From: Dehalococcoidia bacterium
Lineage (GTDB): Bacteria > Chloroflexota > Dehalococcoidia > Tepidiformales > Tepidiformaceae
NCBI GenBank assembly: GCA_022826585.1
Contig: JAJDUR010000055.1
Span: 1 to 64,000, forward strand
DNA length: 64,000 bases
Direction of reading: 5' to 3'
A program made the translations under genes and the position numbers. Shown one piece after another: positions 20,892 to 23,053 of the stretch; within the stretch, counting starts at the first letter, position 1, and every line of letters starts with the position of its first letter. The notes under the pieces were generated by a model. That model searched no databases. It saw nothing but the letters and a program-made list of their open reading frames with translations, and had not been told where the DNA came from.

Positions 20892-22991
20892 CTAGCCTTC
20901 CGCTTCCTCCTCGGGAGCGGCCACTTCGGTGCCGGGGACGGGCGTCCCGGGCCACCGCAGGAAGTCCGCATAGGCCCAGCCCTGCTCGCCGTCCTCGGTG
21001 AGCACGTAGGCCCAGACGCAGTTCCCGTAGAGGTCGTCCTCGACGCACGGACCCTCGACGACGTAGCCATCGGAGGGGTGGGCAACCAGCTCGACGACGC
21101 GCTCCGGCGGCAGGCAGACCTCGATGTCGGACTCGGTCGTGGGTTCCGCGCGGACGTTCAGACAGGAGTCGACGGTGACCTCGGCGGTCAGGGAGCCATC
21201 GAACGGCGGGAGCTGGGTTGCTGGGAGGACGGAGGGGGTGATTCCGAAGGCGGCCCTCAGCGCAGGAGGCTGGTAGATGCGCGCCTCTGCGCTTGTTTCG
21301 CCCCACGAACTGAAGAAGGCGACCTCCTCGAACTCCGCCGAGGCGAGTATCTGGCCGTTGAGGCCCGCGACCGTCTGCATGTCGTGAAGGAAACGAGCCG
21401 GGTCGTCGGGAGCGGGCAGGAGGACGCCCTCGGGGAGGAGGGAGGGCTGGGGGAGGAGCCACTGACCGTCGAGGCCCACGAGCTGGAGGCCGAGGACGGT
21501 ATCGAGCACGAGGGCGGACCCGTCGGCGAGCCAGACGCCGGAGGCACTTCCGGGACGGAGGGGGAAGGCGGTGCCGCTGAGCCGCAGCTGCTCCTCGCCC
21601 GTGGAGGCGTCGAAGACGGAGATGGTGGAGAGGGCAGGGAAGCGGGCTTCGGGAGGAGCGAGGGGGTCGCAGCAGTCGAGGCTCCGCGTGGTGGCGGCGA
21701 TCCAGCGGCCGTCGGGGGAGACGTGGACGCCGGTGCCAAGCACGTCCGGGGAACCGGCGCAGGGGAACGATGCGTCCGACAGGACGGATGTCGACCAGTC
21801 GTACCGCAGCACGCGACAGGTCTGGCCGCCGGCGCCCTCTGCAACTGGTCCGGAGACGAGGGCAAACCCACCTTCGACCCGGGAAGCGCGAACCGCCGAC
21901 GGGAGCGCCACGAGGGGTACCTGGGGCGTGCCGACCCCGAGAAGCCAGAGCTGGCCAGGCACTTCGGGATCGCGAACGAGGAGGAAACCCACGTCGAGCG
22001 CGGCCAACTCGATCTCGAAGCCCGCGGTGATGGCAAACGAGCCGGTCTGTTCCAGCGAGGAGTCGACGAGCACATAGCGGGCCTCACCCTGTGGCTCCGC
22101 ATCGAGGCGCTCGAAGACCACCCTGCCGCCGCCCCAGGCGGCGCGCCGGAGGACTGCGGGATCCCAGGAGAAGGTGCGGCCCTCCACGCGGTCGTGGAGG
22201 GCGCCCTCGACGGCGACGAAGCGGTTGCCGGGTGAGGGCTCGAGGGGAAGGCCCTCGACGCTCTGCCAGCCCTCGACGGCGCCGGTCGCGACATTGAGGA
22301 AGAAGAGCCCGGTGTCGCCTGGGATTTGCTCGCCGGCGGGGTACTCCAGCCGGGTGAACACCTCATCGGTGGGGACCTCGCGGATGCCGAGGGCGTTCGG
22401 GGCCGCCTCGGGGGTGGGGGCGGGCTCCGGCGTGGGGTCCGGCTCGGGTTCGGGGGCAGCCGTGGGGGTTGGCGTGGGCGTCGCCTGCGGGGAGGGGGTG
22501 GGAGTCGCGGTGGGGGTTGGGTCCGGTGGGGGGGAGGTCGTGGCGGGGACGGCGGGGGAGGGGGAGGGGTCGGGGGAGACCAGCAGGTTAACCGGCTCCT
22601 CCGTGGGGCGGGTGAGCAAGACGGCAACGACGATGGCGGGGATGGCCACGAGGGCGATCGCGGCGGCTACGGCAACGCCGAGGACCGGTTTCGGGAGGAA
22701 GCCAAAGGGGACGAGGAGCGGGCCGGCGAGGGCACGGAGGCGGGCGGCGGCCACCTGGGGAAGGCGGACGCGCTCGGGCTCGCGGCGCCAGGTGGCGATT
22801 TCCCGGCGGTTCCGCAGCCCCAGCTTCCCGAGGATGTTGGAGATGTGGTACTTGACGGTGAAGGGACTGACGCCGAGCCGCACGGCGATCTCGGCGTTGG
22901 TGGCGCCGGTACGCACTTCCTCCAGCACCCGCCATTCAGCGGGCGTGAGGATGTCAGGGTATGGCGGCCTCCCGCGACCCCGCCTGGTCAT
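20892..22991 (-). CDS. Membrane-anchored LuxR-type regulator with extracytoplasmic propeller and SH3-like domain
   Basis: The 699-residue protein has a GerE/LuxR helix-turn-helix at residues 15-68 (NAEIAVRLGVSPFTVKYHIS), one membrane helix at about 103-126, a Pro/Thr-rich linker to about 200, a region of short beta-rich repeats to about 590 that reads like a WD/NHL-style propeller (VSPDGRWIAATTRSL is one blade), and a bacterial SH3-like domain with LNVRAEP near 620. The DNA-binding part is thus inside and a large sensor outside, a one-protein signalling design like ToxR but with a LuxR head. Start: ATG with TAGGCT six bases before. Its stop abuts the metH stop with no base between. Confidence 0.8.
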   Translation of the reverse strand: MTRRGRGRPPYPDILTPAEWRVLEEVRTGATNAEIAVRLGVSPFTVKYHISNILGKLGLRNRREIATWRREPERVRLPQVAAARLRALAGPLLVPFGFLPKPVLGVAVAAAIALVAIPAIVVAVLLTRPTEEPVNLLVSPDPSPSPAVPATTSPPPDPTPTATPTPSPQATPTPTPTAAPEPEPDPTPEPAPTPEAAPNALGIREVPTDEVFTRLEYPAGEQIPGDTGLFFLNVATGAVEGWQSVEGLPLEPSPGNRFVAVEGALHDRVEGRTFSWDPAVLRRAAWGGGRVVFERLDAEPQGEARYVLVDSSLEQTGSFAITAGFEIELAALDVGFLLVRDPEVPGQLWLLGVGTPQVPLVALPSAVRASRVEGGFALVSGPVAEGAGGQTCRVLRYDWSTSVLSDASFPCAGSPDVLGTGVHVSPDGRWIAATTRSLDCCDPLAPPEARFPALSTISVFDASTGEEQLRLSGTAFPLRPGSASGVWLADGSALVLDTVLGLQLVGLDGQWLLPQPSLLPEGVLLPAPDDPARFLHDMQTVAGLNGQILASAEFEEVAFFSSWGETSAEARIYQPPALRAAFGITPSVLPATQLPPFDGSLTAEVTVDSCLNVRAEPTTESDIEVCLPPERVVELVAHPSDGYVVEGPCVEDDLYGNCVWAYVLTEDGEQGWAYADFLRWPGTPVPGTEVAAPEEEAEG

Positions 22992-22997
22992 GGGACA

Positions 22998-23003
22998 AGC
23001 CTA
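22998..23003 (-). promoter_or_regulatory. -10 element of membrane LuxR gene
   Basis: TAGGCT on the minus strand, six bases before the ATG; predicted leaderless transcript. Confidence 0.5.
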
Positions 23004-23018
23004 GGGGCTGAGGGTTCG

Positions 23019-23053
23019 AATTACCCCGTCCGTTTTCGGAATTTTCCCGTCCG
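23019..23053. promoter_or_regulatory. Two direct repeats upstream of membrane LuxR promoter
   Basis: On the minus strand CGGACGGGGTAATT (23032-23019) and CGGACGGGAAAATT (23053-23040) are two near-identical direct repeats, 21 bases apart, that is two helical turns on the same face. They lie about 28-62 bases upstream of the predicted start of the LuxR-type gene, where an activator would bind. Autoregulation is an inference. Confidence 0.45.

Follow-up and report, generated by a model that had tools for sequence, protein, structure and literature searches.

Membrane one-component regulators of the ToxR/CadC/TcpP type (reviewed in PMC5936718) consist of an N-terminal cytoplasmic DNA-binding domain, a single membrane helix and a C-terminal outer domain, and have no phospho-acceptor. 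The same arrangement is predicted for a 699-aa protein encoded in 64,000 nucleotides of a Dehalococcoidia bacterium (Chloroflexota, Tepidiformaceae; assembly GCA_022826585.1, contig JAJDUR010000055.1, positions 1 to 64,000), which was analysed as a whole and is called the window below. However, ToxR, CadC and TcpP bind DNA through an OmpR-type winged helix-turn-helix (HTH), whereas the window protein has a GerE (LuxR-type) domain preceded by a GRP arm, belongs to a paralogous set and is accompanied by a site in the -35 region that is found family-wide. Because its head is GerE, the window protein lies outside the ToxR/CadC family by the winged-HTH criterion, and the OmpR/PhoB-type winged HTH (Trans_reg_C) had no match in it at E values up to 1.

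LuxR-type heads are found in membrane-bound as well as soluble regulators. In Eggerthella lenta, DadR, CadR and HcdR are membrane-bound LuxR regulators with 10-12 transmembrane helices (PMC9734109). The window protein and its relatives resemble them in forming a large paralogous set of probable membrane-bound LuxR-type activators, but the helices of the Eggerthella proteins are N-terminal and their HTH is C-terminal, whereas the window protein has one predicted helix, an N-terminal head and a large outer domain. With the soluble NarL/FixJ/LuxR regulators it shares the GerE domain; unlike them, it is predicted to be membrane anchored and has neither a receiver nor an autoinducer domain. SCO4117/ECF52, an ECF sigma factor fused to a transmembrane segment, a Pro-rich stalk and an outer binding domain (PMC8999054), is similar in its cytoplasmic promoter-recognition part, membrane segment and Pro-rich stalk, and its outer domain is carbohydrate-binding. 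The window protein, in contrast, has no detected sigma region 2 and is not a sigma factor. In BlaR1 and MecR1, the sensor domain is related to an effector under the control of the same protein, and signalling proceeds via proteolysis of a separate repressor. A putative sensor domain related to a probably controlled effector is also seen here, but the DNA-binding head is part of the same chain.

A literature search that covered a minority of subscription journals turned up no account of single-pass membrane regulators with an N-terminal LuxR head in Chloroflexota. We regard as new the single-pass N-terminal-LuxR family, its helix-dependent site in the -35 region, and the outer domains that are common to regulators and their likely targets.

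Domain architecture and predicted topology

The regulator gene (20892..22991; ATG start) was delimited from the ORF list and from orthologues in six congeneric genomes; like all the features described below, it lies on the minus strand. Its GerE HTH (22791..22952, residues 14-67) is supported by a strong Pfam match (PF00196, E 1.2e-15) and by predicted helices, and the nearest solved structures are the heads of VraR, NarL and ComA. The head stands at the extreme N-terminus, and no REC or autoinducer-binding domain was matched by Pfam in the window protein. Sigma-70 region 2 was likewise not found in it, with a weak cross-match to region 4 only (E 0.004).

AlphaFold prediction of the head alone, from a single sequence, gave the expected HTH helices (block pLDDT 85-95) and a long helix at residues 101-126. 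This prediction, together with hydropathy and charge bias, defines a predicted single membrane helix at about residues 103-127 (22611..22685). There is a single hydrophobic peak, at residue 108 (Kyte-Doolittle 2.99), and nine K+R residues lie N-terminal of the helix versus one between the helix and residue 200; an N-in/C-out orientation, with the head inside and the remainder outside, is therefore predicted. The earlier note on this DNA had proposed that a LuxR head is coupled via a membrane helix to an outer domain, and this is borne out by the GerE match, the hydropathy and the charge bias, with the topology a prediction. The helix is followed by a Pro/Thr-rich linker (22392..22610, residues 128-200), which is evident from the sequence and is of a type similar to that in many target lipoproteins.

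Immediately N-terminal of the HTH lies RGRGRP (22965..22982, residues 4-9), an arm like those of AT-hooks and Hin recombinase. GRP, in the form RGRP or GGRP, directly precedes the HTH in 41 of the 42 family heads. In AT-hooks and Hin recombinase, GRP arms enter the minor groove at A/T pairs, and by analogy the arm may contact the invariant A/T-rich core of the site described below. Since Pfam reported no AT_hook on N-terminal fragments, this role is one that we infer; a literature check on GRP arms found nothing.

The outer part comprises about 500 aa. Its middle domain (21192..22391, residues 201-600) is fast evolving, as seen from orthologue identities and from a homologous lipoprotein in a sister genome, and is a putative propeller; residues 201-600 had no Pfam family match and no PDB sequence match, and AlphaFold prediction of the outer part, from two sequences only, had a mean pLDDT of 35.7. 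The C-terminal domain (20952..21170, residues 608-680) is SH3-like, contains four cysteines and is 82-89% conserved in orthologues. Its SH3_3 match is weak in the window protein (residues 611-678, E 0.0009, 19.8 bits versus a Pfam cut-off of 27), and SH3_3 was matched in 8/8 aligned homologues, at best with E 5.7e-6; one homologue scored 26.9 bits. Orthologue identity is 83% in the head and 82-87% in the SH3 part, versus 40-57% in the middle domain. In a closer partial copy (L178), the middle domain is 79% and the SH3 part 89% identical, and one congener, from a set that probably derives from a sponge metagenome, carries an 80%-identical outer part. The weak SH3_3 match makes the domain a candidate cell-wall sensor; penicillin-binding transpeptidases are present, and a cell wall is therefore plausible.

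A homologous outer part is also found in five sister proteins of about 600 aa (L240-L244, in G007, G003, G001, G004 and G008), which have a degenerate HTH (AEIAVRLGIS) and a twin-arginine-like membrane segment (SRRAFL). Their genes have a leaderless -10 and no site.

A site on the -35 region of leaderless-looking promoters

Two direct repeats 21 bases apart had been reported in front of the gene. They are indeed present, 21 nt from start to start, and are the sole exact CGGACGGGRWAATTC matches in the window. The repeats had been placed upstream of the promoter, which is not so: the proximal copy (CGGACGGGGTAATTC, 23018..23032), assigned from pattern searches and promoter position, occupies the -35 region of a leaderless-looking promoter. 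The distal copy (CGGACGGGAAAATTC, 23039..23053) was found by pattern search and has weaker copies in orthologues. The layout at the proximal repeat is GGGGTAATTC-N13/14-CTANNNT-~6 nt-start codon, and in the window gene 13 nt separate the proximal copy from the -10 element CTAGGCT (22998..23004), which lies 6 nt before the ATG, as in a leaderless promoter.

The bacterium's own genome is a 2.7 Mb draft of 127 contigs, 93.7% complete and 5.1% contaminated, and the genome-wide scans consisted of pattern searches and chosen stretches. A genome search for the repeat, as the earlier note had suggested, was productive: GGGGTAATTC-N10-20-CTANNNT-N2-15-RTG gave 10 match rows (8 loci) versus 0 in the reversed search, and nine places versus 0 in the reversed control when the start-codon requirement was dropped. 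The repeat had been put forward as a binding site of the regulator upstream of its own gene. As a candidate binding site it is supported, but it is not private to that gene and marks a regulon.

Of 53 collected sites, 49 have a 13-nt spacer to the -10 and the other 4 a 14-nt spacer; the start codon follows 6-7 nt past the -10 in 38. The fixed spacer and the nearby start codon therefore identify leaderless-looking promoters in which the motif fills the -35 region. The information profile over the collected sites is AAACGGACGGGGTAATTC. An AATT element is present 19-23 nt upstream in 16/53 sites, versus 6 at 45 other offsets tested, and the distal repeat is therefore a strong example of a second, optional element. 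The exact 21-nt spacing was rejected as a general rule, as the AATT element stands 19-23 nt away, and at some sites only.

The window gene is flanked by a convergent metH on one side and an AMP-ligase gene on the other. The orthologues lie between the same two neighbours, both of which are more than 91% identical between orthologue genomes. Whether the repeats recur upstream of orthologues had been set as a test, and the proximal copy was found in 5/5 orthologues with an available start, with the -10 element and its 6-nt distance from the start codon unchanged; the distal copy is present in weaker form. Over 60 genomes, the promoter pattern occurs in 7/7 genomes with an orthologue versus 1/53 without (Fisher p 2e-8), a co-occurrence that is partly inherited because the genomes of one genus are related, and relatedness inflates such tests. 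Two congeners have neither orthologue nor site (G005 and G008). In the exception without an orthologue (G013), the site is directly upstream of a related head. This head (L089, G013:C22) stops after 67 aa with promoter and site intact, and is possibly a frameshifted copy.

A paralogous family whose sites covary with the recognition helix

Seven further genes in the same genome have the same head-helix arrangement, giving at least eight family members in total. The outer parts of the paralogues contain RCC1 repeats, RCC1 with leucine-rich repeats (LRR), or carboxypeptidase-regulatory and peptidase-like domains. The family was analysed as a set of 42 distinct heads from several genera. A G[AT]AA anchor is found on the gene's own -35 region in 38/42 family genes, with four heads having no anchored site, and in 35/42 heads the distance from a G-N-A-A-N-Y-C core to the start codon downstream is 33-35 nt. 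The nine bases preceding the core form a variable half that differs by head class: ACGGACGGG in the window clade, TCGGGTAGG for SPDAVKYH, GGGGCTGGG for SLATVKFH, TCGGGGGAG for GPETVKTH and TCGGGTGAT for SPETVKTH.

If each head binds before its own gene, covariation of the variable half with the recognition helix is expected. In Mantel tests, the recognition helix correlated with the variable half (r 0.547, p 0.0005; partial r 0.545), a result that is partly inherited among related genomes and that depends on site registration, with r 0.26 for poorly registered sites and 0.55 after re-anchoring on G[AT]AA. Against the core, r was 0.002 for the recognition helix and 0.135 for the post-HTH region, and the post-HTH/TM region gave r 0.068 against the variable half. 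Control columns tested against the recognition helix reached 0.18 (upstream) and 0.13 (spacer), much below the variable half, and flanking DNA correlates weakly with the HTH (r 0.13-0.29). There is overlap between the site classes of the paralogues (GGACGGGG, GGGTGGGG and GGATGGGG), so the assignment of targets to paralogues is uncertain and partly resolved.

Family members are sometimes found next to each other or next to related surface-protein genes. At L046:3674-8494 (minus strand), an RCC1 lipoprotein gene adjoins the gene of a membrane LuxR regulator of the RCC1 type. Each of them has a separate site variant, and the repeats of the two are about 42% identical. At L045 (G000:C118), two membrane LuxR regulators with peptidase-like outer domains are neighbours, and the first (503 aa) is among the few heads without a recognisable site.

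Genes behind the sites

In nine congeneric genomes, a broader pattern gave about 85 rows versus 4 in controls. Judged by a simple signal-peptide or lipobox rule, 43/53 non-regulator genes behind sites look exported, versus 7/45 window genes (p 6e-11). Targets in the bacterium's own genome include a LysM lipoprotein, a 1273-aa LRR protein, RCC1 lipoproteins and carboxypeptidase-regulatory proteins. Another own-genome target, at L050:690-6947 (minus strand), is a 2086-aa bacterial alpha-2-macroglobulin whose gene follows a site identical to that in the window.

The targets and the regulators have domains in common. A domain in common with the outer part of some regulator was detected in 19/29 targets of at least 200 aa, versus 0/111 window ORFs. 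Two of these pairings are specific: the C84 regulator (site GGGTGGGGTAACTC) resembles the C103 secreted protein behind GGGTGGGGTAAATC, with 37% identity over 737 aa, and a G006 lipoprotein with the outer part of the window protein (31% over 575 aa) sits behind GGGTGGGGTAATTC.

Proposed mechanism and alternative explanations

Computation has revealed the domains, the paralogy, the site and its position, the co-occurrence of site and regulator, the covariation of helix and site, and the bias towards exported targets. The explanation that we consider probable is that these proteins, as predicted from sequence, are one-component activators that are anchored in the membrane and control both their own genes and a cell-surface regulon in a genus of Dehalococcoidia. 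In such a protein, the GerE head would stay in the cytoplasm, one helix would span the membrane, and the Pro/Thr stalk would hold the fast-evolving and SH3-like domains outside. The head would bind GGACGGGGTAATTC at the -35 position in leaderless promoters with a TANNNT -10 but without a usual -35. Once bound, it would recruit RNA polymerase at its own promoter, resulting in autoregulation, and at about 5 to 12 further promoters in each genome. The majority of these would drive lipoproteins and other exported proteins of the RCC1, LRR, LysM, alpha-2-macroglobulin and carboxypeptidase-regulatory or peptidase-like types. Of the two parts of the site, the variable GC-rich half is probably read by the recognition helix, and the A/T core may be read by the conserved GRP arm. 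Paralogues that differ in outer domain and site variant would then form parallel surface-sensing circuits. Binding itself, activation in preference to repression, the role of the GRP arm, the topology in the cell and the external signal are the inferred parts of this scheme.

Other explanations differ in what they make of the motif. An alternative sigma factor could recognise it as a -35 element, with the membrane LuxR gene just one of the targets; the motif does lie exactly at -35, the spacer to the -10 is fixed, and a set of exported proteins is driven from it, as is often the case with ECF sigma factors. We consider this very unlikely, as the variable half at each paralogue tracks the recognition helix of that paralogue but not the remainder of the chain, and the motif accompanies the orthologue and is missing from congeners without one. 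Moreover, the -10 has the common TANNNT form, and other leaderless promoters here have it without the motif. If the regulator itself binds the motif, it could act as an autorepressor, blocking the -35 region at its own promoter and at those of its targets until it is released by a signal from outside. The overlap of the site with the expected place of sigma region 4 would suit such a repressor, and looping or cooperative binding could be aided by the second, distal site, but the promoters have no recognisable -35 besides the site, an arrangement suited to an activator. Activation from near -40 is also frequent among GerE proteins, for instance LuxR and NarL. Activation is the more likely of the two, and the repressor is unlikely.

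The remaining alternatives concern the outer domains and the reality of the repeats. The same domain types exist as plain lipoproteins behind the same sites, and the middle domain is fast evolving, as might be expected if the outer domains were surface effectors instead of sensors and the head only autoregulated the production and dosage of the surface protein. This is unlikely, as the fusion of head and outer domain is kept in every orthologue with an available start, and the target genes are far off in the genome. Short sequences also recur by chance, and several loose matches are expected per window, but reversed controls give 0 and the position of the motif is fixed relative to the -10 and the start; furthermore, the flanks beyond the site differ among copies, and repeats due to chance or to a mobile element are scarcely conceivable.

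Beyond membrane-anchored activators of a surface regulon, a fuller picture can be offered tentatively, as possible and not yet probable. These proteins may be single-pass membrane activators with an N-terminal LuxR head and form a family not described before, whose GRP arm and recognition helix read a two-part -35-region site with a specificity code readable from sequence. Their sensor domains would come from the same pool as the controlled surface proteins, providing uncultured, probably sponge-associated Dehalococcoidia with a rapidly diversifying sensor-effector repertoire.

For these uncultured bacteria, the analysis provides a testable signalling system, with the sensing proteins, the DNA that they probably read and the surface proteins that they probably switch on. 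The variable halves of the sites, tracking recognition helices across paralogues, are a natural data set for the DNA-recognition code of the GerE fold. In addition, the modular design of head, stalk and exchangeable outer domain is attractive for biosensors. Leucine-rich-repeat proteins have been proposed as mediators of contact between sponge symbionts and their host (PMC6306507), and the targets include such proteins, so control of symbiont-host contact becomes testable.

Very short genes also occur behind the sites. At six loci (L016, L094, L097, L098, L129 and L135), the site is followed by a tiny lipoprotein-like ORF (45-66 aa, MGRRTR...ACGGG). In six congeneric genomes, this ORF lies closely in front of a citramalate-synthase-like gene; it may encode a small lipoprotein or serve as a leader.
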